From: Prevotella sp.
GTDB taxonomy: Bacteria > Bacteroidota > Bacteroidia > Bacteroidales > Bacteroidaceae
Assembly (NCBI GenBank): GCA_017476785.1
Contig: JAFUZD010000030.1
Span: 1-39,781, forward strand
Length of the DNA: 39,781 bases
Direction of reading: 5' to 3'
Positions 7,032-30,677 of this stretch are shown piece after piece. The notes under the pieces were generated by a model, which saw only the letters and a list, made by a program, of their open reading frames with translations, ran no database searches and was not told where the DNA came from. Every line of letters begins with the position of its first letter. Positions within the stretch are counted from its first letter, which is position 1. The translations under genes were made by a program, and so were the position numbers.

Positions 7032-9059
7032 CTATTTGATGTGTTTCTTGTTTCCGATGATGTAGAGGCCGCGCTCCAGTCCGTCGAGTGCTTCGGCGGT
7101 CGGTGTGCCAGCCGGCAGCGTGCGTACCAGTCGGCCGGCTACGGTGTAGACGCGCGTCGGGGCTGCAAAGACGTCAGCACGGACAGCCTCGATGGCCGTA
7201 GTGGCGGTGACATCGCTGACGGTGAACTTATTCTCCTGTGAGGCATCGGCTGCTCCGATGACATAGTATTTGTCGCCGGTGATGCCGGTGATGTCGACGG
7301 TCTGGTTGTTGCCGCCGCCTGCGCCTTTGTCAAAGATGATGTTGAACGAGGCCACCGACTCGGGCAGCTCGAACGTCTGGTAGTACCACTGCTTGCCGTC
7401 TACGGTCTTCTTGTCCGTAATCTTCTTGCCCGGCCATCCGCCGTTCAGCTCGCCGTTGTCGCTCCAAGCATAGAAGTACATCTGGCTCCATCCGGGATCC
7501 TGCACGTGGATGGTGATAGCGCGCGTAGCCTCGGGCACATACTTCGTATAGTGGCGGGTGATGATGCCGCTGACGCTGCCGCCTACGAGCAGACCCACCT
7601 TCAGCGTTACGTCGCCGCTGAGCTGGATGGTGCTGCCGCTGCTGACTTTCGTCGACGAGGCCGTGGGCGTGGTGCCATTGGTGGTGTAGACCAGCTGGGC
7701 ACCGTCAGTGGCCGATACGGCCGTCAGCTTGACGTTGAACGTGCCGTCGTATTCGCCCGAAGGCGTGTCCACCCAAGCCGTCTCCAGCGTGCGCGGCAGA
7801 TAGTAGGCATAGTGATAGCCGCGCAGCACGTTGACCCACTGGGCCTCGCTGGGCACATACGTGTTCAGGTCGCTGCCCACCACCACCTGCAGGCGGTTCT
7901 GGTTGTTGGTCTTGATGAGGTTGGCGTAGTAGTTCTGGTTGCTGCGCATATTGGTGTACGAGCTCTCGTTGGTGATGCCGGCCAGCTTGCGGGCATCGAT
8001 CATCAGCTTGATTTCGCGCTTGTAGTCCTGCCAGTGCTTCAGGAAGACGCAGGGCGTGCCGGGCATTGCCAGCAGATAGGCATTGGCGGCCAGCGTGTCT
8101 TTGCGGATGGGGTCCTGCTGAGCCGTGGCCGAGCGGTACTCCGTGTCGTGGTTCTCAACGAACGTCACGGCATAGCGGCGGTAGTTGCCGCTCTCATAGC
8201 TGCTGCTCACCAGCGGCCAGTTGCCGTCGTTCTGCATTCCCAGCTGCTGCCAGTTGCCTTTGCTGATGGCATTGCGTACGGTGTAGCGGAACTGGAAGTC
8301 AAAAGCTGCGCTGGTCTTTCCTGCTGCATCGATCCAGTTGCGGATGGTGGGCGTGCCGTCCCAGCACTCGCCCACGGAGAACTCGGGGGCGGCATACTCG
8401 TTGTACATCTGGGTGTACTTTCCGGCATAGCCTTTCACCATATCGTAGCGGAAACCGGCGTAGCCCAAGTCGTCGATTAGCATCTTCACGTAGGCTTTCA
8501 CGTTCTGCTGCACGTTGGTGCTCATATGGTCGAGGTCGCGCATTCCGTCCCAGCCCTCGCCCGTGTCGTTGTTAGGACCCACGGTCTGACCGTTAGCGGC
8601 AGCCTCGTCGTTCTTGCAGATGTCCTGATAGGTCAGCTGATAGGTGACGCCCTTATAGGTCTCAGCGGGGAAGTCGGTCCACGTCGACAGGTTCTTGCGG
8701 TGGTTGACTACCACGTCGGCAATGGCTTTCAGTCCTTTGCCTTTGAACGTGCTGATCATCGAGCGCAGCTGCGCCTCGGTGCCAAACGAGCTGTTGTAGT
8801 GGCCGGGGAACCAGTAGAGCGGGTCGTAGCCCATCGACTGGCTGCCGCAGTCGCCGCTTTGGGGAATCCAGACGAGGTCGAAGAACGCAGCGAGCTCGTC
8901 GGCCTGTGCCTCCAGCTTGGTCCAGCGGGTATCGCTGTAAGAGTCCCAGTAGAATCCCTGTAACATCACGCCCTGATACTGCGAGGGCCATCCCTGTGCC
9001 AGCATCAGCAGCGGGAACATCATTACAAAAAGTGCAGTTGCTAATCGTTTCATTCTCAA
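7032..9059 (-). CDS. Secreted GH13 alpha-amylase with starch-binding module and T9SS-like tail
   Basis: A 675-residue alpha-amylase that cuts alpha-1,4 bonds of starch outside the cell. The signal peptide ends near LLMLAQ. The catalytic barrel shows DVVVNH, then the nucleophile D206 in GFRYDMVKGY, acid/base E231 in SVGECWDG and D305 in VENHDTEYR. Residues about 435-505 look like a chitobiase-type beta sandwich. Residues about 512-605 (FYAWSDNGELNGGWPG) look like a CBM26-type starch-binding module. The tail (VYTVAGRLVRTLPAG to GLYIIG) resembles the type IX secretion sorting domain, unlike the lipid-anchored SusG of B. thetaiotaomicron. The gene lies downstream of susF but behind a terminator and with its own promoter and operator-like site. 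The start could be ATG 9059 or the in-frame ATG at 9053. Confidence 0.93.
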   Translation of the reverse strand: MRMKRLATALFVMMFPLLMLAQGWPSQYQGVMLQGFYWDSYSDTRWTKLEAQADELAAFFDLVWIPQSGDCGSQSMGYDPLYWFPGHYNSSFGTEAQLRSMISTFKGKGLKAIADVVVNHRKNLSTWTDFPAETYKGVTYQLTYQDICKNDEAAANGQTVGPNNDTGEGWDGMRDLDHMSTNVQQNVKAYVKMLIDDLGYAGFRYDMVKGYAGKYTQMYNEYAAPEFSVGECWDGTPTIRNWIDAAGKTSAAFDFQFRYTVRNAISKGNWQQLGMQNDGNWPLVSSSYESGNYRRYAVTFVENHDTEYRSATAQQDPIRKDTLAANAYLLAMPGTPCVFLKHWQDYKREIKLMIDARKLAGITNESSYTNMRSNQNYYANLIKTNNQNRLQVVVGSDLNTYVPSEAQWVNVLRGYHYAYYLPRTLETAWVDTPSGEYDGTFNVKLTAVSATDGAQLVYTTNGTTPTASSTKVSSGSTIQLSGDVTLKVGLLVGGSVSGIITRHYTKYVPEATRAITIHVQDPGWSQMYFYAWSDNGELNGGWPGKKITDKKTVDGKQWYYQTFELPESVASFNIIFDKGAGGGNNQTVDITGITGDKYYVIGAADASQENKFTVSDVTATTAIEAVRADVFAAPTRVYTVAGRLVRTLPAGTPTAEALDGLERGLYIIGNKKHIK

Positions 9060-9081: not shown

Positions 9082-9089
9082 CGAAGGTA
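9082..9089 (-). promoter_or_regulatory. -7 box of the amylase gene
   Basis: On the minus strand this reads TACCTTCG, one mismatch from TAnnTTTG, about 22 bp upstream of the start codon. It lies 55 bp from the operator-like palindrome at 9144-9159, the same distance as in the susC promoter. Confidence 0.55.
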
Positions 9090-9143: not shown

Positions 9144-9159
9144 GCGCAACCGATTGCAT
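9144..9159. promoter_or_regulatory. Putative LacI-family operator upstream of the amylase
   Basis: GCGCAACCGATTGCAT matches ATGCAAACGATTGCAT (a one-base variant of the perfect palindrome upstream of malQ) at 13 of 16 positions and matches the susC/lacI site at 14 of 16. It keeps the central CG typical of LacI-family operators. It sits upstream of the amylase -7 box, not over it. Confidence 0.55.
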
Positions 9160-9174
9160 TACCCCAAAGGAAAC

Positions 9175-9202
9175 GGCGGCTCCGCATTCGTGCGGAGCCG
9201 CC
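9175..9202 (-). terminator. Rho-independent terminator of the susCDEF operon
   Basis: A perfect 12-bp GC-rich stem (GGCGGCTCCGCA at 9175-9186 with 9191-9202) and a tetraloop lie 38 bp beyond the stop of susF. On the minus strand the hairpin is followed by a T-rich stretch. It separates susCDEF transcription from the amylase gene. Confidence 0.85.
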
Positions 9203-9239
9203 TTTCGTGTGATGACTTATCTGTAATGCTTTGGCGGGT

Positions 9240-10652
9240 TTATTCTACCGTAGCATAGATTTTGTCAGAGGTCTTGCGGGTGGGGTAGAGCTTGATGGTA
9301 GTACCCACGTTCGAGAGGTTACTGCCATCCTGCGTCAGGTCGGCAATGTCGCCGCCGAGGTTGATGCCCCAGTCGTCGTTAGCCGTGAACTTCCATCCGT
9401 TGGCCGTCACACCAGCACCGGTGATGACGTAGCAATAGTTGTCGGCATCCCACGTCAGCTCCTGAGCAGCGTCAGACGGAACCCATCCGTTGAAGTCGCC
9501 CACCAGCTTCATCGTGGTGATGCGGGTAGCGTTCAGCGTGTTGTTGACGAGGTCGAGCACTACGTAGTAGAGACCCTCACCAGCCGTAGCCTTGATGTTG
9601 CCACCACCGTCGGCGAAGTCGCCCGTGATGCCGCCCGTGAAGGTGCCCGAGTTGATCTCGTTGTCCCACGAGCCAGCCACACGCTGGAACTTGAACTCAT
9701 TGCCCCATCCGTTCGGGTCAGCGCAGTAGACGTAGCCCGTGTACACACCGTCTAAGTTGAGCGTAGCCAGCTTCTGCTCAGCATTGGCCCAGCCGTCGGT
9801 AGCACCGATGAAGTAGACGAAGGGTGCGAAGTCGAGCTTCTCCAGCTTGTAGGTGTAGTTCATCATATTGATGGTCATTCGGTAGATGCCGGCCTCGGCA
9901 ATGCGACCTGCACCCGGGTCGTTGGCACCCTCGGCCACCGTGATGAGGTTGCCCTCAAGTGCGTCGTCGCCGTCAACGGCAACGCCCACGATGCCCTTCT
10001 CGCCCTTAGCCCAGATGTCGTCGGCATTGTAGCCCGTAGCTGAGGCAATCTTCCAATACTGGTCGTTGGCCGTGGTGGTGATGACAATCTGGAACTCAGG
10101 ATTGTCGTACACGTCGCCGTCGCCGATGTGGGTGAAGGCCTTGGCACTGGCAGCATCCCAGCCCACCATATCGCCTACGAGGTAGTAGCCCGAGTCGATG
10201 AACGGAGCCTTCAGCGTGACGGAGATGGTAGAGGCAGCCTTATTGGCCACCGATACACCGTTCACTTCCGTCAGGGCCACGATGTCCATCTGAATCGTGT
10301 GGGCTTCAGGGCGCTTGCCATAGAGTGCCTCTACGGCGGCACGCAGCTCTTCAGCCGTTACATAGCCATTGGCGTCGGTCTCCAGTGTCTGAGAGTTCGA
10401 CTTGTCGTCGTTGTAGAGGGTCACGAGATAGGTGGTAGCCCCCTCGGCAGTAGTCACGAGCGAGGGAACGAACAGCTGCACGTTCTCGGCCGTGAGGTTG
10501 GCATAGTCGACGGCAGGTGCCGCACCGACGGTCATCTCTACCGTCTGAGCAGCCTCGGCACCGTTAGCCTGCGGGCTCAACCACTCTTCGTATGTCTCTG
10601 AGCAGCTCGCCATCAGCAGAGCGATGCCCAACATTGATAATATCTTTTTCAT
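9240..10652 (-). CDS. susF: SusF-like outer-membrane starch-binding lipoprotein
   Basis: A 470-residue surface lipoprotein. The lipobox is LMASC with acidic residues soon after the cysteine, as in surface-exported Bacteroidetes lipoproteins. An N-terminal SusE/F-type Ig-like segment is followed by at least three beta-sandwich modules that begin with patterns such as YYLVGDMVGWD (about residue 156), VYFIGATDGWAN and MKLVGDFNGWVP, the starch-binding modules of SusE/SusF. The size is close to SusF of B. thetaiotaomicron (485 residues, from memory). It is the last gene of the minus-strand operon, 30 bp after susE, and is followed by a terminator. SusF binds starch at the surface without cutting it. 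Its place after susE and its three modules separate it from SusE. Confidence 0.88.
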   Translation of the reverse strand: MKKILSMLGIALLMASCSETYEEWLSPQANGAEAAQTVEMTVGAAPAVDYANLTAENVQLFVPSLVTTAEGATTYLVTLYNDDKSNSQTLETDANGYVTAEELRAAVEALYGKRPEAHTIQMDIVALTEVNGVSVANKAASTISVTLKAPFIDSGYYLVGDMVGWDAASAKAFTHIGDGDVYDNPEFQIVITTTANDQYWKIASATGYNADDIWAKGEKGIVGVAVDGDDALEGNLITVAEGANDPGAGRIAEAGIYRMTINMMNYTYKLEKLDFAPFVYFIGATDGWANAEQKLATLNLDGVYTGYVYCADPNGWGNEFKFQRVAGSWDNEINSGTFTGGITGDFADGGGNIKATAGEGLYYVVLDLVNNTLNATRITTMKLVGDFNGWVPSDAAQELTWDADNYCYVITGAGVTANGWKFTANDDWGINLGGDIADLTQDGSNLSNVGTTIKLYPTRKTSDKIYATVE

Positions 10653-10682
10653 ACTTCTTTTCTTTTTAAGAGATTAAGAAAA

Positions 10683-11816
10683 TTACTGTGCTGTAACGAC
10701 AACGCGGTTGTTGCCCTCATAGCTGATGTAGAGCTCAATCTTGTAGGTGCCTGCCGACTCGAGCTGCAGGTTGGCACCGCCGTTCTGAGTCAGGTTGTCG
10801 AATGCCGTACCGTCGCCGTCAGCACCACCCCAGCTTACAGCCCAGTCGTGGTTCATACGGAACTTCATCTCGCCGGCATTGAGGGTAGCGGTTGCCTCCC
10901 AAGCGCCCGTCTCAGTGTTGTAGGTCAGGTCGGTGTCATCATCCCAGTTACCGTTGACGGTACCGATGATAGAAATCGACTCTACGAGCGTCATCTTGTA
11001 GGTGTAGGGCTCGGCCGTCATATTAGCGTCAATCTGATAGAAGCCGGCATCTACGCCCGTGAAGTTGCTGCCGCCGTTGTCCTCGAAGGTACCCTCGGTC
11101 TCGTTGACAACCGTGCCGAGCTCCCAGTCGCCGTTCCAGTCACCCTCGTTCGGTCGGAACTTGAACTCGCCGTCCATATAGTAGTAACCCTGATAGATTC
11201 CGTCGAAGTTCGGGCTGCGCAGCGGGTGAACCGTGGCCCAGCCGCTCTCGTTACCAATCTCATAGATGTACTCGGGATAGGAAGCGGCCTCGGCGAATAC
11301 GGGAACCACCGTCAGCTTGATTACATTCGAGTAGACCGGCTCGAGGCTGGAGAAGGTAGACTTAACGCGGACATAGACATCCTGCGTGGCAGGCACGTCG
11401 TCGTCGGTCTCCCACTTCGAGATTGTCGTGATGGCTGCTGCCAGCTGGTTCTTGTCGAGGTCGGCGCTGCACGAGATGAGCGGATTGGCCAGCTCTACAT
11501 AGTTGCAGACCGTAGCCCCCGACTCGTCGGCAGCCTCGTCGGCAGCCGATACGGTGTAGTTGCCGTCGAGCGAAATCTGGATGTAATAGTTGGCTGCCAC
11601 AGGGAATCCGCCGTAGTTAGGCTGCGACCACGTGAGTGGCAGGCTGCTGGTGGTCTCCAAGTCGATGGTCGACGAGGAGTAGGCCGGCGTGTTCAGCACG
11701 AACGAGCCTGCTGCGGGCTGAACAATGGTCGGATTATGGTCGCGGTCGTCGGCGCAAGCGGCGAACAGACCGATGCTGCACAGGAGCAGCAATGTTGACT
11801 TGATAATATTTTTCAT
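10683..11816 (-). CDS. susE: SusE-like outer-membrane starch-binding lipoprotein
   Basis: A 377-residue lipoprotein with lipobox LFAAC followed by ADDRD, which fits the acidic surface-export signal of Bacteroidetes lipoproteins. The N-terminal 170 residues form the SusE-type Ig-like domain (PLTWSQPNYGG, QISLDGNY). Two beta-sandwich starch-binding modules follow (YIYEIGNESGWA and SISIIGTVNGNWD). The length fits SusE of B. thetaiotaomicron (387 residues, from memory). It lies 25 bp after susD and 30 bp before susF in the same operon. Expected role: binding of starch or maltooligosaccharides at the cell surface and modulation of the imported chain length. Confidence 0.88.
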   Translation of the reverse strand: MKNIIKSTLLLLCSIGLFAACADDRDHNPTIVQPAAGSFVLNTPAYSSSTIDLETTSSLPLTWSQPNYGGFPVAANYYIQISLDGNYTVSAADEAADESGATVCNYVELANPLISCSADLDKNQLAAAITTISKWETDDDVPATQDVYVRVKSTFSSLEPVYSNVIKLTVVPVFAEAASYPEYIYEIGNESGWATVHPLRSPNFDGIYQGYYYMDGEFKFRPNEGDWNGDWELGTVVNETEGTFEDNGGSNFTGVDAGFYQIDANMTAEPYTYKMTLVESISIIGTVNGNWDDDTDLTYNTETGAWEATATLNAGEMKFRMNHDWAVSWGGADGDGTAFDNLTQNGGANLQLESAGTYKIELYISYEGNNRVVVTAQ

Positions 11817-11841
11817 AATCTTTATTGTCTTTAAAAATCAA

Positions 11842-13494
11842 TTACTTCACATATCCGGGATTCTGAACCAGATTGCCATTGCTGGTCAGCTGAGTAGCCG
11901 GGATGGCAAAGATGTTCATATACTCCTCGAAGTTGCGGCCTTCTTTCACGCCACCTTTCCACTGCCACTTGTAGTCGCAGTTCATACCGCCGTACTTGCC
12001 GAAGCGGATGAGGTCGACGCGGCGGCGACCCTCGAAGTAGAACTCACGGCTCCACTCGTCGAGAATCTCGTCGAGCGTGAAGCTGGTCTTGGTCGCAGCG
12101 TGGGCGCGGTCGCGCAGTGCCTTGAGGGCAGCGATACCTTCGCTGGTAGCATTGCCGCCGTTCTTGCGTGCGGTTGCCTCAGCATAGGTCAGGTAAGCCT
12201 CGGCCTTGCGGAAGAAGAACCAGTCAGCATCGGTGAACTGCGGGTCGTAGGTGCTGCTGCCATCGCTCTTGTAGCTGATGAACTTGGCTACGCCATAGCC
12301 CTCGGTAAACTCCGACACGTTGTCGATGTCGAGCGTATGACCCTCGCCGTAGAACAGAGCGCGGTCGTCACCGGCTGCTGCCGGCATATCATACGACGGA
12401 ATCTGGGGCGCATCGTTGTTGGGGAAGAACTTAGCCACGAGGTCGGGGCGTGCACGGTTACCGTCCCAGTGCGCCGTCGTGCCGTTGTAGCCGTTCGGGT
12501 CGTTGGGGTTGGCGTGCATACTCTCGTTGAAGCACGAGGCAATGAGGAACAGCGAGTTGCCATAGCCCACCGTGGTCTGAGAGTTCTGGAGAATGGGGAA
12601 GATGGCCTCATAGGCAGCGTCGGTCTCGCCGTTGTCGCCCATAAAGAGCATCTGATAAGCACTCCACTGGCCATTGGCCGAACCGTTCTCGTTGAGCTTG
12701 TAGGTGGTCAGGTCCATCACCTGCTTGGCATACTTGGCAGCCTCGTCCCACTTAGCCTCGCCCGTATAGACCTCTGCATTCAGGTAGAGGCGTGCCAGCA
12801 GCATCCAAGCAGCGGCTTGGTCGATGCGGCCATAGCCCGTCTCGTTAGACTTCTTACCTTTCGGTGCGGAGAGCTGCGGCTCGATTTCAAGCAGTTCGTT
12901 GACAATCCACTCGAAAGCCTCGGCGCGCGAGATTTGTGAGGGCTTGGTGATGGTGGTAGAGAACGGAATGTTTCCGAAGGCATCCATCAGCAGGTAGTAT
13001 TCCAGTGCGCGCAGATAGCGTACCTCAGCCGTCATCGTTGCGTCGTGGTCGGCTGCTACTTCCAGATACTGGTTGCAGCAGGAGATACCGCTGGTGATGC
13101 TGGCGAAATAGGCGCGGAGCATCGGCTCGGTATCGTCGTAAGTGTTGTAGTTGAACTCGGGGATACCCGTGTCGCCCCACGTACAGATTGCCTCGTCGGT
13201 GGTCAGCTCGTTGGAGTTCCACATCTGGCGCACGAGGTTGGTCATACCGTAGTCGTTGTAGCCAGTCACGTCGGGGTTACCATCGCCGGCGCTGTTGATA
13301 GAACCGTCGCCCACGCCAGCCATCGCAAACTTGGCATAGCACTTCTCGAACAGACCGTTCACGTCGTATTGAGTCTCCAGCTTGGGGCTGATGGGCGTTA
13401 CGTCGAGGTCGCCCGTGCAGGATGTCATTCCTCCCATAGCCAGTGCAACCGCAGCAACCGGAATGATATTCTTGATATATACTTTGATTTTCAT
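11842..13494 (-). CDS. susD: SusD-family starch-binding lipoprotein
   Basis: A 550-residue lipoprotein (signal peptide with GGMTSC lipobox), almost the same length as SusD of B. thetaiotaomicron. Helical TPR-like segments (AEVRYLRALEYYLLMDAFGN) and the typical SusD C-terminal signature (FYFEGRRRVDLIRFGKY, then IFAIPATQLTSN) are present. SusD caps the SusC channel at the outer membrane and binds starch helices. The gene starts 25 bp after susC, in the usual SusCD order. The neighbouring SusE/SusF, amylase, pullulanase, MalQ and GH97 genes support starch, glycogen or maltooligosaccharide as the substrate. Confidence 0.92.
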   Translation of the reverse strand: MKIKVYIKNIIPVAAVALAMGGMTSCTGDLDVTPISPKLETQYDVNGLFEKCYAKFAMAGVGDGSINSAGDGNPDVTGYNDYGMTNLVRQMWNSNELTTDEAICTWGDTGIPEFNYNTYDDTEPMLRAYFASITSGISCCNQYLEVAADHDATMTAEVRYLRALEYYLLMDAFGNIPFSTTITKPSQISRAEAFEWIVNELLEIEPQLSAPKGKKSNETGYGRIDQAAAWMLLARLYLNAEVYTGEAKWDEAAKYAKQVMDLTTYKLNENGSANGQWSAYQMLFMGDNGETDAAYEAIFPILQNSQTTVGYGNSLFLIASCFNESMHANPNDPNGYNGTTAHWDGNRARPDLVAKFFPNNDAPQIPSYDMPAAAGDDRALFYGEGHTLDIDNVSEFTEGYGVAKFISYKSDGSSTYDPQFTDADWFFFRKAEAYLTYAEATARKNGGNATSEGIAALKALRDRAHAATKTSFTLDEILDEWSREFYFEGRRRVDLIRFGKYGGMNCDYKWQWKGGVKEGRNFEEYMNIFAIPATQLTSNGNLVQNPGYVK

Positions 13495-13519
13495 ATTTCG
13501 TAATGCTTTAATTGTTGAC

Positions 13520-16500
13520 TTAGAAATTCAGGTTCAGACCAACGATGACCGAGAACGGACGCGGATAGAGGTTGGAGTCGATACCGTTGTAAACCTCCGG
13601 GTCGATGCCGTCATACTTGGTGATGGTGAACACGTTCGACGCCGTGGCATAGACGCGGCCGCTCAGGCCGTGCCAGTTGCCGCTCTTGAAGAGGTCTGCG
13701 AAAGAGTAGCCCAGCGTGATGTTGTCACACTTGAGGAACGAAGCGTTCTGAACAAAGTAGTCGCTCAGCTTCGACGGCATTTCGTCCGAGCTCCAGCCGA
13801 GGGTATTGATGGTACGGTTGTTCAGGAACTGGCTCTGTGCCCACAGGGCGCTCTGAGTGGTCAGACGCTGGCCCTGCTCTACGCTGTTGTACACGTAGTT
13901 GCCGATGTTGGCGCGCAGTGAGAAGCCGAAGTCCCAGTTCTTGTACTCCAGACGCGAGGTGAGACCCATCGTGATGGGGGCAGCTGCGCTCTTGTAGAGG
14001 TAGCGGTCTTCCTCGGTAATCTGGCCGTCGGCATTGCGGTCTACCACAGCACCCTCGATGGGCTTGCCTGCTTCGTCGTAAGCCTGCTGGTATACGTAGA
14101 ACGAGTTGGCCGGATAGCCTACCTGATGAGCCAGCACCTGATTGGTCTGGTCGATGTTGTCACCCGTCTTCACCGGCTGGCCGTTTTCCGACACACCCGT
14201 CAGGTTCGTAATTCTGTTCTGGTTGTAGGTGAAGTTGTAGCCGATGGTCCAGTACCAGTCTTTCGACTGCAGTGCCTTCCACTCCAGCGATACCTCGACA
14301 CCCGTGTTGCGCAGGTCGCCAATGTTCTGGTTGCCATTGTCGCTGAATCCTGCCAGTGCAGCCAGCGGAGCCCAGTTGAGCAGGTCAGTGGTCATACGGT
14401 AGTACCAGTCTACGCTACCCGTGAAGCGCTGGTTGAAGAAGCCGAAGTCCAGACCGACGTTGTAGGTCGTGGTGGTCTCCCACTTCAGGTCGTAGTTCAC
14501 GTCGCTCGGGCGGTAGAGTGTACCGTCGTCCTGTGTGCCCATCAGCGGATACTTGGCCAGCGAGCCTACACCCTTCGAGTATTTGGCAATCCAAGCATAG
14601 TTGTCACCTACGTCCTGCTGACCGGTCATACCCCAGCCGAGGCGGAGCTTCAGGTCAGACAGCCAGCTGACGTTGCGCAGGCGGTTCTCGTCCTTCATCT
14701 TCCAAGCGAAGGCGAACGAGGGGAACGTAGACCAGTGGTCCTTAAAGCGTGAAGAACCGTCGCGGCGCACCGTTGCCGTCACGTAGTAGCGGTCCATCAG
14801 GCTCCAGTTGGCACGGCCGAAGAACGATACGAGGTAGTTCTCGTACTGGTCGATGTCGGGGCTGGTAGAGAATACGTCGCCTGCCGTTGCAGCGGTCGAC
14901 GGATAATATTGCGTCCACAGGTTGTCATAGCGGAAGTAGAAGTGCTGCCACTCGTAACCACCCATAATGTCGAAGTGGTTCTTGGCTTGGTCGTTGAAGT
15001 CGTGATAATACTGTGCATAAGCACTCAGCAGATGGTTGCGCTTCAGGTTCCAGTTGTCCGTCACACCGCCGTAGTAGATAGCACCGGGGTAAGCCTGCGG
15101 CTGGTTGCTCTCCAGCGTTCCGGCTGCCACCTCGGCACCCAGCGTGGCGTGGAGGCGCAGGTCCTCGAAGCCGTGAACCTTATAGTCGAGGTCGGCACTG
15201 CCGATGAAGGTGTTCACCTTCTCCTGATTGTCTCTCAGCTCGAGCATTGCCAGCGGGTTAGAGGGTGCGTTGCCGAACTTGGTGAAGGGCCAAGCGGCGT
15301 CGCCCAGTGCCGAAGCACCGGTAGGCCACTCAAAGTAGCCGCCGAAGTTCTGCAGCGTCTGTGCGAGGCTGTTGCCCAGCAGACCGGTGTGGTAGGGCGA
15401 CGTGAAGTTGTGCGGATCCTGCGTCGGGTCGAAGCTCACGGCCGTACCCACGGCACCGGCATCAGCCTTGCGTGCCTTCGAAATCATTCCCTTTGCATTC
15501 AGGTTGAGCACGAGGTGGTCGTTCAGCAGCGAGGGGTTCAGGTTCAGCGAGGCCGTGTAGCGGTTGTAGCTTGAGGTCTTCAGGATACCCTGCTGTCCGG
15601 TGTAGCCCAGCGAAACGCGGTAGGGCAGCACCTTACCGGCCGAACCGGCCACGGTTACGTTGTGGTCGTGGCTGATAGCCGTGCGGTAGATCAGGCTCTG
15701 CCAGTCGGTATTGGCCGTGCCGAGGAAGTTCAGTGCCTCTGCGCCAGCGCCCAGCTTGTCGGTCAGCAGTGCGCGATACTGGTCGGCGTTCATCACGTCG
15801 AGCGTCTTCTGCTTCATACTGACGGTCACGCTACCGGCATACGATACGGTGGGAGCCTGTCCCTTATGACCTTTCTTGGTGGTGATGATGATGACACCGT
15901 TAGAACCGCGGCTACCGTAGATGGCCGTGGCCGATGCGTCCTTCAGCACGTTGAACGACTCGATGTCCTGCGGGTTGATGCTGCCGAGGATGTTCGATTT
16001 GTCGCCCACCGAGTTGTTGTCCATCGGCACACCGTCGATGACAATCAGCGGGTCGTTCGAGGCACTCAGTGACGAGCCGCCGCGGATGCGGATCTGAGCG
16101 TTGCCGCCCGGCTCACCGCTGTACGACGTTACTGCCACACCGGCCACTTTGCCGCCGAGCATATCCTGTGCGCTGACGACTACACCTTTGTTCTTGCCGT
16201 CGGGCTTCAATGCGGTCACCGAACCGGTGAGGTCGCTTTTCTTTACTGCACCATAACCGATGACCACCAAGTCGTTGAGCACCGTGGCATCGTCCTGAAG
16301 GACGACGATGATGTTCGGACCGGCTTTCACCGTCTGAGTCTGATAGCCGATGTAGCTGATTTCGAGGTCAGCACCATTCTTAGCTTTCAAGACGAAGTTA
16401 CCGTCGAAGTCCGTCACGGTAGCGGCCTGTGTGCCTACTACGCGTACGGTAGCACCGATGATGGGTTCGCCCTGAGCATCTTTTACATTACCTTTGACGT

Positions 16501-16591
16501 CAGTCTGCGCAAAGGCTCCTACTGATAGGAGCAGCCCCAGCAAGAGGGTCAGCATCCTACGCGGAATCTTAATGTTTACCTGCTTCATCAT
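13520..16591 (-). CDS. susC: SusC-family TonB-dependent outer-membrane transporter
   Basis: A 1023-residue outer-membrane channel for starch oligosaccharides. The order is signal peptide (ending GAFAQ), a carboxypeptidase-D-like regulatory domain (GNVKDAQGEPIIGATVRVVG, then TVTDFDGNFVLKA), the plug domain (LNDLVVIGYGAVKKSDLTGS to GVIIITTKKG, about residues 105-235) and a beta-barrel ending in an aromatic residue (IVGLNLNF). It is the first gene of susCDEF. The -7 box lies about 77 bp upstream and an operator-like palindrome a further 55 bp away, shared with the divergent lacI. An alternative start is the second Met. The length agrees with SusC (about 1000 residues). Confidence 0.95.
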   Translation of the reverse strand: MMKQVNIKIPRRMLTLLLGLLLSVGAFAQTDVKGNVKDAQGEPIIGATVRVVGTQAATVTDFDGNFVLKAKNGADLEISYIGYQTQTVKAGPNIIVVLQDDATVLNDLVVIGYGAVKKSDLTGSVTALKPDGKNKGVVVSAQDMLGGKVAGVAVTSYSGEPGGNAQIRIRGGSSLSASNDPLIVIDGVPMDNNSVGDKSNILGSINPQDIESFNVLKDASATAIYGSRGSNGVIIITTKKGHKGQAPTVSYAGSVTVSMKQKTLDVMNADQYRALLTDKLGAGAEALNFLGTANTDWQSLIYRTAISHDHNVTVAGSAGKVLPYRVSLGYTGQQGILKTSSYNRYTASLNLNPSLLNDHLVLNLNAKGMISKARKADAGAVGTAVSFDPTQDPHNFTSPYHTGLLGNSLAQTLQNFGGYFEWPTGASALGDAAWPFTKFGNAPSNPLAMLELRDNQEKVNTFIGSADLDYKVHGFEDLRLHATLGAEVAAGTLESNQPQAYPGAIYYGGVTDNWNLKRNHLLSAYAQYYHDFNDQAKNHFDIMGGYEWQHFYFRYDNLWTQYYPSTAATAGDVFSTSPDIDQYENYLVSFFGRANWSLMDRYYVTATVRRDGSSRFKDHWSTFPSFAFAWKMKDENRLRNVSWLSDLKLRLGWGMTGQQDVGDNYAWIAKYSKGVGSLAKYPLMGTQDDGTLYRPSDVNYDLKWETTTTYNVGLDFGFFNQRFTGSVDWYYRMTTDLLNWAPLAALAGFSDNGNQNIGDLRNTGVEVSLEWKALQSKDWYWTIGYNFTYNQNRITNLTGVSENGQPVKTGDNIDQTNQVLAHQVGYPANSFYVYQQAYDEAGKPIEGAVVDRNADGQITEEDRYLYKSAAAPITMGLTSRLEYKNWDFGFSLRANIGNYVYNSVEQGQRLTTQSALWAQSQFLNNRTINTLGWSSDEMPSKLSDYFVQNASFLKCDNITLGYSFADLFKSGNWHGLSGRVYATASNVFTITKYDGIDPEVYNGIDSNLYPRPFSVIVGLNLNF

Positions 16592-16667
16592 TTAATTTTT
16601 AAAGTTAGTATGTTGTTATAAAATCTCGAATGCTTCGCAGCGGGTCAAGTTTGATTTAAATCAATTG

Positions 16668-16675
16668 CAAAGATA
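16668..16675 (-). promoter_or_regulatory. -7 box of the susCDEF operon
   Basis: On the minus strand this reads TATCTTTG, a perfect TAnnTTTG match. No clear TTTG -33 element is found at the right distance, which fits a promoter that needs an activator. The leader to the susC ATG is about 70 nt. Confidence 0.65.
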
Positions 16676-16729
16676 GGTTTTGTTCGCATTTGTTTATCAT
16701 TTTTAAGGGTCAAATCACTGCTTTTGTAA

Positions 16730-16745
16730 ATGCAATCGTTTGCAC
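16730..16745. promoter_or_regulatory. Putative LacI-family operator between susC and lacI
   Basis: ATGCAATCGTTTGCAC is a near-perfect inverted repeat (TGCAA / TTGCA around a central TCGT). It is 55 bp from the susC -7 box and 57 bp from the lacI -7 box, so it is upstream of both promoters. It matches the perfect palindrome before malQ at 14 of 16 positions. Confidence 0.7.
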
Positions 16746-16801
16746 TAACAAAAGGATTAATATTAATAAGGTGCGCGCGACGCTTCCGCGCCTTTTCCAT
16801 A

Positions 16802-16809
16802 TCTTTGCA
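16802..16809 (+). promoter_or_regulatory. -7 box of the lacI-type regulator gene
   Basis: TATCTTTG matches TAnnTTTG, 40 bp before the ATG. It overlaps a half operator (TGCAAACG at 16808-16815), so the regulator could also bind weakly over its own promoter. Confidence 0.6.
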
Positions 16810-16849
16810 AACGTAGCGGCCGCCCTGTTGGCGGTGCACCCAGAAACAG

Positions 16850-17875
16850 ATGAACCAGAAGGCACCATTGACGATGAAAGACATAGCTCGGGAGTTTGGC
16901 ATCTCCGTGGCTACGGTGTCGCGCGCACTGAAGGATTCGCCCCGCATCTCGGCCGAGCGCCGTGCGGCCATCCAGCAGTATGCCCGCGACCACAACTTTG
17001 CGCCCAATGTGATTGCCGAGTCGCTGCGCCACTCGCGGGTGATGCCGATGAAGATTATCGGCGTGATTATCCCCGAATTCAAGCATTTCTACTTCTCCAG
17101 CATCCTGACGGGCATCGAGGAAGAGGCCTCTGCCCGCGGCTATCGCATTATGGTGGCCCAGAGTGCCGAGCGGTATGAGCGCGAGGTGAAGATATGCCAG
17201 TCGTTCTATGAGAATAAGGTGTGTGGCATCATCGTGTCGCAGGCTAAGGACACGCGGAAGTACGACCACTTCCAGCGGCTCATCGATGCCGGCGTGCCGC
17301 TGGTGTTCTACGACCGCATCTGCACGGGTGTGAGTGCCAGTCGGGTGGTGGTCGACGACTATATGGGTGCCTTCAACGCCGTGACCCATCTCATCGAGAC
17401 CGGTTGTCGTCGCATTGCCTTCTACGGCTCGTCGATGACGCTCGAAATCTCGAAGAACCGCTACAACGGCTATCGGGATGCCCTGCTGAAAAACGGCATC
17501 CAGCCCGACAACGAGCTGATGCGCTTCTGCGACAACCGCGCCGATGCCGAGGCCATCACGCCCGAGCTGCTCTCGATGGACAACCGCCCCGATGCCTTCT
17601 TCGCCGTCAACGACGATACGGCCATCGGCATCCTGTACACGGCTAAGCGAATGGGGCTCAGCGTGCCGAACGACGTCTCCATTTGCGGCTTCACCAACGG
17701 CGACCGTGCCATCTCGTGCGACCCGATGCTGACCACCGTGGAGCAGCGGGGCATTAAGGTGGGCGAGGAGGCCGCCGACATCCTGATAGGCCACGTCGAG
17801 GGCATTATCCCGAAAGACAAGACCGAACGCCGCATTGTCCGTACCCGACTGATTATCAGGGGAACGACGAAGTGA
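16850..17875 (+). CDS. LacI-family transcriptional regulator of the starch genes
   Basis: A 341-residue protein. Residues about 6-55 are the LacI helix-turn-helix (TMKDIAREFGISVATVSRAL) followed by the hinge region. The rest is the periplasmic-binding-protein-like effector domain (IIGVIIPEFKHFYFSSILTG; PDAFFAVNDDTAIG; GFTNGDRAISCDPMLTTVEQ). It is divergent from susC and followed 72 bp later by the sugar MFS gene. LacI-type proteins bind palindromes with a central CG; such sites are present here, before the amylase and before malQ. Their upstream position suggests activation, with a maltose-type ligand inferred only from the neighbours. It replaces the membrane regulator SusR of B. thetaiotaomicron, which is not seen in this window. 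Confidence 0.92.
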   Translation: MNQKAPLTMKDIAREFGISVATVSRALKDSPRISAERRAAIQQYARDHNFAPNVIAESLRHSRVMPMKIIGVIIPEFKHFYFSSILTGIEEEASARGYRIMVAQSAERYEREVKICQSFYENKVCGIIVSQAKDTRKYDHFQRLIDAGVPLVFYDRICTGVSASRVVVDDYMGAFNAVTHLIETGCRRIAFYGSSMTLEISKNRYNGYRDALLKNGIQPDNELMRFCDNRADAEAITPELLSMDNRPDAFFAVNDDTAIGILYTAKRMGLSVPNDVSICGFTNGDRAISCDPMLTTVEQRGIKVGEEAADILIGHVEGIIPKDKTERRIVRTRLIIRGTTK

Positions 17876-17880
17876 ATGCA

Positions 17881-17902
17881 CCATCCGTCCCGGCGCGGAT
17901 GG
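17881..17902 (+). other. Hairpin between lacI and the MFS gene
   Basis: CCATCCG at 17881-17887 pairs perfectly with CGGATGG at 17896-17902 (8-nt loop). No T-run follows, so this is not a standard terminator. It may reduce or process read-through from lacI into the transporter gene. Confidence 0.4.
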
Positions 17903-17947
17903 AGGCAAAGAAGACGATGACAACAACGATATAAAGCATTATGCACT

Positions 17948-19300
17948 ATGAGTTATGAATTGAAGAAAAAACCCAGTATGCCTTTCTGGAGCTTGTGGAA
18001 CCTGAGCTTCGGATTTTTCGGGGTGCAGATTGCCTATGCACTCCAGTCAGCCAACATCTCGCGCATCTTCCGCACCCTCGGTGCCGACCCCCACGACCTC
18101 AGCTTCTTTTGGATTCTGCCGCCGCTGATGGGCATCCTCGTGCAACCCATTGTCGGTACGCTGAGCGACAAGACGTGGTGCCGCTTCGGTCGCCGCATCC
18201 CCTATCTGTTTGTGGGGGCAGCCGTAGCCGTGGCCGTGATGTGCCTGCTGCCCAATGCCGGGTCGTTTGGTATGGCTGTCTCTACGGCGCTCGTCTTCGG
18301 TCTCATTGCCCTGATGCTGCTCGACACGAGCATCAATATGGCGATGCAACCGTTCAAGATGCTGGTGGGCGATATGGTCAACGAGGAGCAGAAAGCCAAG
18401 GCTTACAGCATCCAGTCGTTCCTGTGCAATGCAGGCAGCGTGGTAGGCTTTGTGTTCCCCTTCTTCTTCACGTGGATTGGTCTGGCCAACGAGGCCGAGC
18501 GCGGTGTGGTGCCGCCCTCGGTAGTCTGGTCGTTCTATATCGGTGCCGCCATCCTCATACTCTGCGTGCTCTACACCACGCTGAAGGTGAAGGAGTGGCC
18601 GCCGCAGGAATACGCCGCCTACAACGGCATCTCAGAGAACCCCGAGAGCGCTGAGCCCTCCAAGAGCTCCGAGCCCTCCGAGAAGAGCTCCGCCAACTGG
18701 TTTGTCCTGCTGCGCAATGCCCCCGCCACGTTCTGGAAAGTGGGCGTGGTGCAGTTCTTCTGCTGGGCCGCCTTCCTCTATATGTGGACCTATGTCACCG
18801 ATGCCGTCAGCGAGACCGTCTGGGGCACCACCGATGCCGGTACGAAGGCCTATCAGGATGCCGGCAACTGGACGGGCGTGCTCTATGCCATTCAGGCAAT
18901 GGGCAGTGTGGCGTGGGCAATGGTGCTGCCGCGCTTCAGCAATATGAAGCTGGCCTATGCCGTCAGCCTCGTGCTCGGCGGTCTCGGCTTTGCCCTCATC
19001 CCCTTCATCCCCAATCAGTATGGCCAGATAGTGCCCTTCCTGCTCATCGGATGCGCGTGGGCAGCAATGCTGGCAATGCCGTTCACCTTTGTCACCAATG
19101 CCCTTGAGGGCTATGGCCATATGGGCGCCTATCTGGGTCTGTTCAACGGCACCATCTGCCTGCCTCAGATTGTGGCAGCCCTCTGCGGAGGCACCCTCTT
19201 TACCCTCGTCGGTGGTCATCAGTCGTCGATGATGATTGTTGCGGGCGTCCTGCTCTGCGTCGGAGCCGCTTTCGTCAGTGGCATCCGCGCCAAGCGATGA
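17948..19300 (+). CDS. MFS sugar transporter, SLC45/maltose-type
   Basis: A 450-residue inner-membrane protein with about 12 hydrophobic segments. The loop GTLSDKTWCRFGRRIPYL between TM2 and TM3 is the signature of the SLC45/sucrose-maltose branch of the major facilitator superfamily. The start (FWSLWNLSFGFFGVQIAYAL) is typical of the proteins placed in Bacteroidetes maltose clusters. Residues about 230-248, the cytoplasmic loop between TM6 and TM7, are an E-x-S repeat encoded by 9-bp units, matching a repeat in MalQ nearby. It probably imports maltose or short maltooligosaccharides from the periplasm using an ion gradient. It follows lacI by 72 bp. The substrate is inferred from context. Confidence 0.88.
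   Translation: MSYELKKKPSMPFWSLWNLSFGFFGVQIAYALQSANISRIFRTLGADPHDLSFFWILPPLMGILVQPIVGTLSDKTWCRFGRRIPYLFVGAAVAVAVMCLLPNAGSFGMAVSTALVFGLIALMLLDTSINMAMQPFKMLVGDMVNEEQKAKAYSIQSFLCNAGSVVGFVFPFFFTWIGLANEAERGVVPPSVVWSFYIGAAILILCVLYTTLKVKEWPPQEYAAYNGISENPESAEPSKSSEPSEKSSANWFVLLRNAPATFWKVGVVQFFCWAAFLYMWTYVTDAVSETVWGTTDAGTKAYQDAGNWTGVLYAIQAMGSVAWAMVLPRFSNMKLAYAVSLVLGGLGFALIPFIPNQYGQIVPFLLIGCAWAAMLAMPFTFVTNALEGYGHMGAYLGLFNGTICLPQIVAALCGGTLFTLVGGHQSSMMIVAGVLLCVGAAFVSGIRAKR
18635..18691 (+). repeat. 9-bp Glu-X-Ser tandem repeat inside the MFS gene
   Basis: About six imperfect 9-bp units (GAGAACCCC, GAGAGCGCT, GAGCCCTCC, AAGAGCTCC, GAGCCCTCC, then GAGAAG-AGCTCC) are in frame and encode ENPESAEPSKSSEPSEKSS. 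They fall in the central cytoplasmic loop of the transporter. The same kind of unit occurs in malQ at 21968-22030. Confidence 0.75.
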
Positions 19301-19319
19301 GACGGCGGTGGTGAGGTCA

Positions 19320-19382
19320 GCGAGAATTCTCGCGTAAATTTTCCGAATTCTCGCGAGAATTTCAGCAATTCTCGCGAGAATT
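19320..19382. repeat. 21-bp-period palindromic repeat array
   Basis: AATTCTCGCGAGAATT, a perfect 16-bp palindrome, occurs at 19346-19361 and 19367-19382. A degenerate copy (AATTCTCGCGTAAATT, 14 of 16 matches) starts at 19325. The period is exactly 21 bp, about two helical turns. The array begins 20 bp after the MFS stop and ends just before the PAP2 promoter. It may be a regulator-binding array, a read-through barrier or a mobile mini-repeat. Confidence 0.75.
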
Positions 19383-19395
19383 TGTTTTTATTTCG

Positions 19396-19403
19396 TATCT
19401 TTG
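19396..19403 (+). promoter_or_regulatory. -7-like box just before the PAP2 gene
   Basis: TATCTTTG matches TAnnTTTG but lies only 5 bp before the ATG at 19409. If it is used, the mRNA would be nearly leaderless. The close spacing makes its use uncertain. Confidence 0.4.
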
Positions 19404-19408
19404 TGCAG

Positions 19409-19969
19409 ATGAAACGACGCATTACCTTCTTTATAATCGCGTGCGCGATGGCCTTGCCGGGCTTTGCCCAGCAACAGCATAGCGACCGGCTGGACGACCT
19501 CCTGCGCCTGACGCCCACCGCAGCCACCTTCGCCCTGCGCTTGGCGGGTGTGGAGGGCTCGCGGCCGTGGCAGCAGGGGCTGGCGGGCAAGTGTATCTCG
19601 TGGGGCCTCACCATCGGTACCGTCTACGGGCTGAAGCATACGGTCAATGAGACGCGCCCCGACGGCAGCGACCGCCACTCGTTCCCCTCGGGCCACGCCG
19701 CCATTGCCTTTGCCGGCGCCCGCTCGCTGGATAAGGAGTATCGCCACGTGTCGCCGTGGATTAGTGTGGCTGGCTATGGCGTAGCCACGTTCGTGGCCGT
19801 GGACCGCGTAGCTAAGGACCGGCACCACTGGTACGACGTCTGTGCCGGTGCCGCCATCGGGTTGGCCGCTACCGAAGTGGGCTACTGGCTGGGCGACCGG
19901 CTCATCAAGAACGACCACGTGGCCATAGGCTTCAGCGGCAACCGCATTGATTTGGCACTCAGCTGGTAG
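19409..19969 (+). CDS. Exported PAP2-family phosphatase
   Basis: A 186-residue protein starting at ATG 19409 (MKRRITFFIIACAMALPGFA signal peptide); longer starts in this frame would spoil the signal peptide. The three PAP2 phosphatase motifs are present in order: KHTVNETRP (KxxxxxxRP), FPSGHAA (PSGH, with the catalytic histidine) and RVAKDRHHWYD (RxxxxxHxxxD). Such enzymes remove phosphate from lipids such as undecaprenyl pyrophosphate or phosphatidic acid at the periplasmic face. It lies between the transporter and malQ, but the operator-like site directly after its stop suggests malQ has separate control, so a starch role is not implied. The substrate is unknown. Confidence 0.85.
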   Translation: MKRRITFFIIACAMALPGFAQQQHSDRLDDLLRLTPTAATFALRLAGVEGSRPWQQGLAGKCISWGLTIGTVYGLKHTVNETRPDGSDRHSFPSGHAAIAFAGARSLDKEYRHVSPWISVAGYGVATFVAVDRVAKDRHHWYDVCAGAAIGLAATEVGYWLGDRLIKNDHVAIGFSGNRIDLALSW

Positions 19970-19974
19970 GAACG

Positions 19975-19990
19975 ATGCAAACGTTTGCAT
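19975..19990. promoter_or_regulatory. Perfect LacI-family operator upstream of malQ
   Basis: ATGCAAACGTTTGCAT is a perfect 16-bp palindrome with central CG. It begins 6 bp after the PAP2 stop and lies 88 bp before the malQ ATG. It is 54 bp before the -7-like box, matching the 55 bp seen at susC and the amylase. Confidence 0.75.
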
Positions 19991-20043
19991 AAAATGTCGG
20001 CAGATTCACTCCGCATTTGGCACGCCCGAATGCGGATTTTTTG

Positions 20044-20051
20044 TAATTTTA
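20044..20051 (+). promoter_or_regulatory. -7-like box of malQ-susB-pulA
   Basis: TAATTTTA differs from TAnnTTTG only at the last base. It is 27 bp upstream of the malQ ATG and has the expected distance from the operator. No TTTG -33 element is evident at the usual spacing. Confidence 0.45.
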
Positions 20052-20077: not shown

Positions 20078-24953
<4,876 letters not shown>

Positions 24954-24995
24954 GGGTTTGCTTCCCGTGAATCCTGTCATCTTAAAGAATCACCA

Positions 24996-26906
24996 ATGAG
25001 AGCATTGATACTGAGCGGACTGTTATCCCTGCTGCTGCCGCAGGCCGCGGCGGCACAGACCTTCAACGAAGTGGACTATACGCCCGAGAAGACCACGTTC
25101 ACCCTCTTCGCCCCCAGCGACGCGCCGGCGGTGAAGGTGCGGCTCTATGCCGAGGGCAGCGGAGGCCGCGCACTGAAGACCGTCAGGCTGAAGCGCACGG
25201 GCAATGAGCGGTGGACGGCCGACGTGAAAGGCGACCTGCGCGGCAAGTTCTACACCTTCGACATCGGGCGCGGCGAGTGCCCGGGTGTCTTTGCCAAGGC
25301 CGTCGGCGTCAATGGCCGCCGCGGTGCCATCGTCGACCTGAAGTCCACCGACCCGGAAGGGTGGGAGAGCGACCGCCGGCCCGTCTGCAAGTCGCCGGCC
25401 GACCTCGTCATCTACGAGCTGCACCATCGCGACTTCTCCATCGCCCGTCCCGGCGCGCAGCATCCCGGCAAGTTCCTCGCCCTCAGCGAGCCGTGGGCCA
25501 TCGACCACCTGCGCTCGCTCGGCGTCAATGCCGTCCATATCCTGCCGTCCTACGACTACGGCTCTGTGGACGAGACACGGCTGGACACCCCGCAGTATAA
25601 CTGGGGCTACGACCCCGTGAACTACAACGTGCCCGAGGGGTCGTACTCCACCGACCCCGCCCGTCCCGAGGTGCGCATCCGTGAGTTCAAGCAGATGGTG
25701 CAGGCACTCCACCGTGCCGGCATCCGCGTCATCCTCGACGTGGTCTACAACCATACCTACGACATTGAGCACTCCAACTTCCAGCTGACGTACCCCGACT
25801 ACTTCTATCGCAAGACCCCGCAGGGTGCTTACAGCAACGGCTCGGGCTGCGGCAACGAGACGGCTTCGGAACAGCCGATGATGCGCCGCTTTATGCTGGA
25901 GAGCGTGAAGCACTGGATTCGCGAGTACCACATCGACGGCTTCCGCTTCGACCTGATGGGCGTGCACGACATTGAGACGATGCGCCAGATACGGGCGATG
26001 GTCAACGAGATTGATCCCACCATCTATATCTATGGTGAGGGATGGAGCGCCGGACAGTGCGCCCTGCCCACCGCGCAGCTGGCCGTCAAGGCCAACACCG
26101 CGCAGCTCGACGGCATCGGTGCTTTCAGCGATGAGCTGCGCGACGCCCTGCGCGGTCCGTTCTCCGACGATACGAAGGGCGGATTTCTTGCCGGCGTTGC
26201 CGACTGCGAAGAGAGCATCAAGTTTGGCATTGCTGGCGGCATCCAGCATCCGCAAGTAAATATGACGAAAGTCAACTATGCCGCGGCGCCGTGGGCGGCC
26301 GAGCCGACGCAGCTGCTCAGCTATGTCAGCTGTCACGACGATATGTGTCTCGTAGACCGTCTGCGTGCCAGCATCCCGGGCATAACAGAGGAAGAACTCA
26401 TCCGGCTCGACCTGCTTGCCCAGACCGCCGTCTTCACGTCACAGGGCGTGCCCTTCATCCTCAGCGGTGAGGAGCTGCTGCGCGATAAGAAGGGCGTGCA
26501 CAACAGCTTCGAGTCGCCCGATAGCATCAACCAGCTCAACTGGCAGAACCGGCAGCGCTATCCGCAGGTGTTCCAGTATTACAGCCAGCTCATCCGCCTG
26601 CGCCGCCAGCATCCGGCCTTCCGGCTGGGCGATGCCGGGCTCGTGCGCAAGCATCTGGAGTTTCTCGATGCACCGCGCCAAGTGGTGGCCTATCGGCTGA
26701 AGAACTATGCCGGCCGCGATGCGTGGCGCGACATCATCGTCGTCCTCAATGCTGCCCGCCAGCCACAGACCGTCACCGTCCCCGAGGGCACCTACACCGT
26801 AGTCTGTGCTAACGGCGTCATCGACCTACGCCGCCACGGGCTGGCCACCGTCGCCGGCACTCAAGTTACCGTCGACCCTCAGTCGGCCCTGATTATTCAT
26901 AATTGA
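24996..26906 (+). CDS. pulA: Type I pullulanase (GH13), exported
   Basis: A 636-residue debranching enzyme that hydrolyses alpha-1,6 bonds in pullulan and in branched starch fragments. The signal peptide is MRALILSGLLSLLLPQAAAA. Residues about 28-110 form a CBM48-like N-terminal domain (KTTFTLFAPSDAPAVKVRLY). The type I pullulanase hallmark YNWGYDP is present, followed by VVYNHTY, nucleophile D319 (FRFDLMG), acid/base E348 (IYGEGWS) and D448 in SCHDDM. No lipobox is seen, so a periplasmic location is likely. It is 42 bp downstream of susB and followed by a strong terminator, so it is probably the last gene of malQ-susB-pulA. Confidence 0.92.
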   Translation: MRALILSGLLSLLLPQAAAAQTFNEVDYTPEKTTFTLFAPSDAPAVKVRLYAEGSGGRALKTVRLKRTGNERWTADVKGDLRGKFYTFDIGRGECPGVFAKAVGVNGRRGAIVDLKSTDPEGWESDRRPVCKSPADLVIYELHHRDFSIARPGAQHPGKFLALSEPWAIDHLRSLGVNAVHILPSYDYGSVDETRLDTPQYNWGYDPVNYNVPEGSYSTDPARPEVRIREFKQMVQALHRAGIRVILDVVYNHTYDIEHSNFQLTYPDYFYRKTPQGAYSNGSGCGNETASEQPMMRRFMLESVKHWIREYHIDGFRFDLMGVHDIETMRQIRAMVNEIDPTIYIYGEGWSAGQCALPTAQLAVKANTAQLDGIGAFSDELRDALRGPFSDDTKGGFLAGVADCEESIKFGIAGGIQHPQVNMTKVNYAAAPWAAEPTQLLSYVSCHDDMCLVDRLRASIPGITEEELIRLDLLAQTAVFTSQGVPFILSGEELLRDKKGVHNSFESPDSINQLNWQNRQRYPQVFQYYSQLIRLRRQHPAFRLGDAGLVRKHLEFLDAPRQVVAYRLKNYAGRDAWRDIIVVLNAARQPQTVTVPEGTYTVVCANGVIDLRRHGLATVAGTQVTVDPQSALIIHN

Positions 26907-30601: not shown

Positions 30602-30642
30602 AAAAATCGCGGTGCGATGAGGGCGATGTGGGAAAAAATGCG

Positions 30643-30650
30643 TATCTTTG
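30643..30650 (+). promoter_or_regulatory. -7 box of susA
   Basis: TATCTTTG matches TAnnTTTG, 27 bp before the susA ATG. No -33 element and no operator-like palindrome are seen at the distance found for the other starch promoters. Confidence 0.6.
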
Positions 30651-30677
30651 TCAAGTGAAACATAATGCTAACTTGAG

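Follow-up and report, generated by a model that had tools for sequence, protein, structure and literature searches.

Starch is a major substrate of gut and rumen bacteria, and the regulatory model in use comes from SusR of Bacteroides thetaiotaomicron. Spence, Wells and Smith are said to have described, in 2006, OsuR of Bacteroides fragilis as an activator of the starch operon osuABCD which mediates maltose induction. SusR binds maltose and activates starch genes; the motif predicted for it is a direct repeat whose centres lie 67 or 77 bp from each other (PMC3878776). MalR is named beside SusR as a maltose-dependent regulator of the sus genes of B. thetaiotaomicron (PMC12632263). The predicted sus loci of B. 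fragilis and Bacteroides uniformis carry LacI-type regulators, MFS transporters and GH65 enzymes, and no SusR (PMC11633381). Here we analyse a starch locus from a Prevotella sp. (assembly GCA_017476785.1, contig JAFUZD010000030.1); the window is the whole stretch of 39,781 nucleotides. Its regulator belongs to the LacI family and its operator is an inverted repeat, unlike SusR, which is not a LacI-family protein and has a direct-repeat motif; it does not fit the SusR family, which is marked by a membrane protein with a periplasmic sensor and a direct-repeat operator. An original prediction, derived from the letters of this DNA, had claimed a wiring unlike that of SusR. This was right, although B. 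fragilis and B. uniformis had already been reported to have LacI regulators in SusR-less sus loci (PMC11633381). We consider it highly probable that the LacI protein of the window activates transcription of the alpha-glucan genes as well as its own operon, and that it acts from an upstream palindrome.

The operators and promoter boxes of the window are the following.

9144..9159, no strand: operator of the amylase promoter, degenerate, a G10 variant reading ATGCAATCGGTTGCGC on the amylase strand; sequence GCGCAACCGATTGCAT
9082..9089, minus strand: -7 box TACCTTCG of the amylase promoter, 54 bp from the operator
16730..16745, no strand: operator common to the divergent susC and lacI promoters; sequence ATGCAATCGTTTGCAC
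16668..16675, minus strand: -7 box TATCTTTG of the susC promoter, 54 bp from the operator
16800..16807, plus strand: -7 box TATCTTTG of the lacI promoter, 54 bp from the operator
19975..19990, no strand: operator of the malQ promoter, a perfect palindrome; sequence ATGCAAACGTTTGCAT
20044..20051, plus strand: -7 box TAATTTTA of the malQ promoter, 53 bp from the operator
20010..20043, plus strand: terminator-like hairpin and T-run, seen by eye, between the malQ operator and its -7 box, at the would-be -33 position

All three 16-bp palindrome-like sites lie where the original prediction had placed them. The gap is defined from the operator edge to the first base of the -7 box (consensus TAnnTTTG). 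When measured by script it is 54 bp for amylase, susC and lacI and 53 bp for malQ. The predicted near-constant spacing is in truth more uniform than proposed; the figures given for it (55, 55, 57 and 54 bp) were 1-3 bp too large. The amylase and malQ boxes are each one base off the consensus. The operator is an inverted-repeat 16-bp palindrome with a central CG in 86/86 sites picked for at most three mismatches to ATGCAAWCGWTTGCAT. The perfect palindrome, allowing up to three mismatches, matches the window twice against 0.14 expected; the amylase site is not among these matches. Counted by eye on the amylase strand, that site has four mismatches to the perfect palindrome and one to the family pattern RYGCAAWCGWTTGCRY; to ATGCAAWCGWTTGCAT it has three. 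Its G at position 10 is shared by many of the relatives' amylase sites. The assembly from which the window comes (2.72 Mb in 139 contigs, 89% complete) contains only two sites with at most one mismatch to ATGCAAWCGWTTGCAT, both within the window, and two further sites elsewhere with two mismatches; the reversed control pattern yields three at up to two mismatches.

The arrangement was followed through 80 related loci, the top 80 of 252 obtained by a single scan of contigs from one genome per species, with titles comprising Prevotella, Prevotellaceae, Segatella baroniae, Hoylesella oralis and one 'uncultured bacterium'. A promoter was scored as conserved when a site with at most one mismatch to RYGCAAWCGWTTGCRY was accompanied by a -7 box at 52-55 bp. 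This applies to lacI in 77/79 evaluable loci (one has too little upstream DNA), to susC in 75/77 (two lack a gene match, in one the start is unaligned), to malQ in 29/65 (15 loci lack the gene) and to amylase in 20/35 (45 lack the gene). That the palindrome is kept before orthologous genes, a test set in advance, is strongly borne out for lacI and susC and only in part for malQ and amylase. Within each promoter type the gap has a standard deviation of 0.4-0.7 bp, boxes being accepted only at 52-55 bp. The -7 box stands at variable distances before the ATG, 6-90 bp for lacI and 45-185 bp for susC. An open scan of the 372 sides of 186 exact sites recovered 260 exact TAnnTTTG boxes at 52-55 bp and 27 over the other 188 offsets.

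In a wider set of 109 loci, i.e., the 80 and 29 more from the family, the two-sided lacI/susC arrangement with boxes at 52-55 bp on both sides is present in 95/108; L046 was excluded from this count on account of its short upstream DNA. The other 13 comprise six with the lacI side only, which keep a gap of 53-54 bp, two with the susC side only at the best site, three with a two-mismatch operator and both boxes, and two without the arrangement (L014, L075). The two susC-side-only loci, L023 (genome G054) and L024 (G107), are double-operator loci in which the second operator is 53-54 bp from the lacI -7 box. In these two genomes each of the two operators is 53-54 bp from its own promoter.

A -7/-33 promoter consensus is documented in B. 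thetaiotaomicron (PMC7366714). The original prediction had noted a lack of clear -33 elements, and the counts bear this out: TTTG is found at -33 in 1/256 operator promoters, compared with 14/52 other putative promoters in these loci, which served as controls, and with 2.2% at random positions. The corresponding values for TTG are 12/256, 22/52 and 9.4%. Between one promoter type and another, of the four, spacer identity is only 31-34%, which means that the distance is conserved and the sequence is not. The malQ spacers often form stable hairpins (energy below -8 kcal/mol in a fraction of 0.69 of 29). Common descent of the four promoters as the cause of their equal spacing was considered and judged unlikely because of this low identity and the frequent malQ hairpins. 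All four types have A/T-rich positions in common, 37-40 bp before the -7 box. With the four types weighted equally, no position upstream of the -7 box reaches 1 bit.

These features suggest how the regulator may work. A LacI dimer would bind the 16-bp palindrome about five helical turns upstream of the promoter, with some 62 bp between the operator centre and the first base of the downstream -7 box. For a box centred at -7, this puts the operator centre at about -72 relative to the transcription start. The class I position of the activator CRP is -71.5, which the operator centre matches. A fixed core-promoter distance (gap 52-55 bp) and a missing upstream element (no -33), which are marks of a class-I-like arrangement, are present. 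The bound dimer would recruit RNA polymerase with the Bacteroidota primary sigma factor to promoters which possess a good -7 box and no -33. The A/T-rich positions would suit a contact with the RNA polymerase alpha-subunit, as expected of a class-I-like activator working through the C-terminal domain of that subunit. Since dimer and site are symmetrical, one dimer could serve both divergent promoters and activate susCDEF and lacI-mfs in mirror image.

The obvious objection is that most characterised LacI-family proteins repress. The protein could be a conventional repressor of the LacI type that maltose releases, with its upstream site acting via looping or by blocking another activator. Some sites in the malQ 5' leader are in a roadblock position, and in four lacI promoters an additional -7 box stands at 17 bp from the operator, as detailed below; both would suit such a repressor. 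We nevertheless regard it as improbable. The distance to the -7 box is near base-pair-exact on both sides and the -33 is missing. A second conserved binding site is not visible, since no position reaches 1 bit, and a second promoter is not required, as 6/108 loci have the 53-54 bp gap towards lacI only. Occlusion of the promoter as a means of repression was discarded for the 54-bp sites, whose operator overlaps with neither the -33 position nor the -7 box; such occlusion is a possible mode at the 17-bp boxes and the leader sites. Finally, a LacI paralog in the same genomes illustrates a repressing position, with its operator 16-17 bp away from its own -7 box.

This paralog belongs to a group (36-38% identity) with the operator ACGTAAACGTTTGCGN, which is positioned 16-17 bp from the group's own -7 box, so that it covers -33, and at 43-44 bp from the -7 box on the divergent side, i.e., one helical turn nearer than 54. 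The geometry suggests autorepression together with activation of the neighbour. In a survey of 60 LacI loci, eight had no tblastn match, ten were starch orthologues and 42 were other rows. Among these 42 non-orthologous rows, seven, equal to six distinct loci (L211, L213, L217, L220, L221, L261), have the 16-17/43-44 geometry; the remaining rows share no common geometry.

Activation rather than repression, as originally predicted, is thus favoured by the fixed -7 spacing, the missing -33, operator duplications which keep the spacing, and the opposite geometry of the paralog. An autoactivating LacI-type activator in a class-I-like geometry is, we infer, the best reading. A general LacI distance code for Bacteroidaceae is a bolder proposal, to which we give slightly less than even chances: an operator 54 (or 43) bp upstream would replace the -33 and activate, one at 16-17 bp would cover the -33 and repress. 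If this were true, the sign of regulation would be readable from sequence alone across many sugar-utilisation loci.

Sites away from the 54-bp position raise the question whether the protein does both. Among the 27 off-position boxes the largest group consists of seven at 17 bp, five lacI rows and two sites in genome G226. Four distinct lacI promoters (L097 9840; L107 9834, identical with L173; L201 2001; L208 11594) have, in addition to the exact -7 box at 53-54 bp, a second one at 17 bp. Possibly, this is a basal, repressible second promoter. As a bound dimer should block the 17-bp box, lacI may be under mixed autoregulation in these species. At 16 malQ sites no -7 box is visible at 52-55 bp: L084 is 86 bp before the ATG, the other 15 are at 18-41 bp (L045, L048, L050, L051, L052, L053, L055, L056, L057, L058, L065, L067, L094, L104, L113). 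Several of these leader sites are the G10 variant; L052 is not judgeable because the stretch is masked. Most of 12 leader sites looked at start within a few bases of the mfs end. A dual regulator, which activates at the 53-55 bp sites and represses elsewhere, for instance as a roadblock in the malQ leader or at the extra lacI box, would account for the 15 leader sites and for the lacI promoters with boxes at both distances. Set against it, 12/16 box-less malQ sites carry one mismatch and may be relics of a lost promoter. Taken together, the box-less sites may be relics, roadblocks or low-affinity sites, and we hold dual regulation to be a minority possibility, rather unlikely though worth keeping in mind.

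Does the motif belong to this regulator? The exact pattern RYGCAAWCGWTTGCRY occurs in 80/100 genus genomes, the reversed control pattern in 3/100. At least 75 sites were found genome-wide; with two of the window and one at a contig edge set aside, 72 from 30 other genomes were examined. Among these sites listed, 27 are between lacI and susC, 17 before amylase and 17 before malQ; two precede susC only (one at 33% identity), two lacI only (one being a 36%-identity paralog in G226) and seven other genes. Thus, 64 precede susC, lacI, malQ or amylase, one a LacI paralog and seven something else. Excluding the G226 paralog, assigned promoters have a -7 box at 53-55 bp in 90/91 cases. The motif scan proposed in the original prediction delivered the expected genes at the same spacing, and genome-wide the sites precede alpha-glucan genes, in agreement with a putative starch/maltose regulon.

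The motif also travels with the regulator gene. In 201 family genomes it is present in 28/35 with an orthologue of at least 50% identity versus 11/166 without (the reversed control pattern in 6/201), and among 80 of the 100 genus genomes the regulator, at E <= 1e-100, occurs in 59/60 motif-positive versus 8/20 motif-negative ones; the p values, about 5e-19 (Fisher) and about 2e-8, take neither relatedness nor the incompleteness of assemblies into account. Many LacI-family operators are similar to the consensus and the paralog group in these genomes has a related site, so one might argue that the motif serves another regulator with a similar LacI-type operator and that the adjacent LacI gene is a bystander. 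The strong co-occurrence and the autoregulatory position of the operator make this most improbable. Moreover, in G226, the only one of the 60 motif-positive genomes that lacks an orthologue, the two sites adjoin other genes, including a LacI paralog, and the boxes are 17 and 52 bp away. Binding by this LacI protein is predicted, and gene content points to maltose or maltodextrin as its likely inducer.

Several observations weigh against activation. Besides the 16/65 malQ genes with a site and no box at 52-55 bp, 20/65 have no site with at most one mismatch, and the same is true of 15/35 amylases. Eight motif-negative genus genomes carry the regulator, and the 17-bp boxes of the four lacI promoters belong on this side as well. 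The loci are from related species and the counts are uncorrected for relatedness; the 186 sites reduce to 174 distinct neighbourhoods. Further afield, in 18 phylum-level LacI loci (37-43% identity) similar motifs occur in places, and the geometry is absent when exact boxes are sought in 400 bp upstream of lacI; the attempt to extend the geometry phylum-wide was unsuccessful. In Segatella copri, a mixture containing starch did not induce the transporter gene of a degenerate starch locus, in a strain which may carry this LacI, and the authors speak of de-repression for the loci of this species in general (PMC11784079).

The genes of the locus are listed here in the order of the window.

7032..9053, minus strand: alpha-amylase, GH13 with CBM26 (Pfam)
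9240..10652, minus strand: SusF-like outer-membrane protein (Pfam SusF_SusE, barely over the cut-off)
10683..11816, minus strand: SusE-like outer-membrane protein (Pfam SusE)
11842..13494, minus strand: SusD starch-binding lipoprotein (Pfam; NCBIfam SusD 444 bits, under the cut-off of 725)
13520..16591, minus strand: SusC TonB-dependent transporter (Pfam)
16850..17875, plus strand: LacI-family regulator, 341 aa (Pfam LacI and Peripla_BP_3)
17948..19300, plus strand: MFS sugar transporter (Pfam MFS_1; synteny)
19382..19969, plus strand: PAP2-family protein, a facultative neighbour (Pfam)
20078..22807, plus strand: 4-alpha-glucanotransferase MalQ, GH77 with CBM20 (Pfam)
22794..24953, plus strand: GH97 enzyme, SusB-like (Pfam GH97)
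24996..26906, plus strand: type I pullulanase (NCBIfam TIGR02104, over the cut-off)

The regulator possesses an N-terminal LacI helix-turn-helix (PF00356) and a periplasmic-binding-like sensor domain (PF13377), both over the Pfam cut-offs; its closest solved matches are CcpA-type proteins. The MFS gene is likely cotranscribed with lacI. By tblastn over the 109 loci the MFS transporter is matched in 108, susC in 103 and the PAP2 protein in 11, many of these loci being short. The GH97 and pullulanase genes are probably part of the malQ operon; neither an operator nor an exact -7 box was found upstream of GH97 (22400-22810) or of pullulanase (24800-25000). A neopullulanase/cyclomaltodextrinase-like (SusA-like) gene at 30678-32609 has an exact -7 box at 30643. 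It is probably outside the regulon because no operator was found in 30350-30690. Upstream of the GH97, pullulanase and susA-like genes of the window there is no site with fewer than five mismatches.

Some further sites and genes are recorded for completeness. One of the seven 'other' sites precedes a gene which by eye resembles a GH97 enzyme. The sites L274 1501-1516 and L275 1501-1516, each with a -7 box 54 bp away, precede genes with no obvious link to alpha-glucans, one being GH28 polygalacturonase-like by eye; they may be outliers of the regulon or due to chance. A second operator from a different genus of the family (L282 1501-1516) is flanked by a susC homologue and by a gene that weakly (29% identity) matches the window SusA-like GH13, with -7 boxes 54 bp off on both sides, repeating the mirror arrangement. 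Elsewhere in the window, 3697-6126 encodes an 809-aa protein with an RNA polymerase alpha C-terminal-type domain at residues 8-67, in which Pfam recognises nothing else, and 1916-3586 a Schlafen AlbA_2-domain protein adjoining an open reading frame at 139-1923 (weak radical-SAM match, below the cut-off).

If the proposed activation is correct, a large group of Prevotella-type starch degraders would sense sugar in the cytoplasm after its import, and regulator and importer would be tied into a positive feedback loop. The 54-bp rule leads to directly testable predictions and would allow activation to be deduced from sequence in bacteria which are hard to manipulate.

CcpA is a LacI-family protein that activates some genes; like Cra/FruR it is a global regulator, and both are mostly repressors. 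Cra/FruR, too, is a LacI-family protein which activates some genes (PMC4052901). In contrast to these global proteins, the nearest parallels for LacI-family activation at upstream sites, the window system is a local regulon with one shared distance, in which one site can serve two promoters. The LacI regulators KdgR, UxaR, UxmR and UxuR of B. thetaiotaomicron are assigned to uronate pathways (PMC3878776). They are from the same family and the same bacterial group, yet deal with uronates, not starch. A literature search, conducted mostly in papers free of subscription and in their accessible parts, and hence not a claim of absence from print, returned no description of a Prevotella LacI starch regulon, its operator or its spacing. 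OsuR, reportedly a maltose-dependent activator of starch genes, is alike by description. The type of regulator is not new, because LacI proteins are reported in the SusR-less sus loci cited at the outset and OsuR is said to be an activator. A LacI-family activator is itself a known kind, not a new class of system; the operator code and its fixed distance to the promoter appear to be new.

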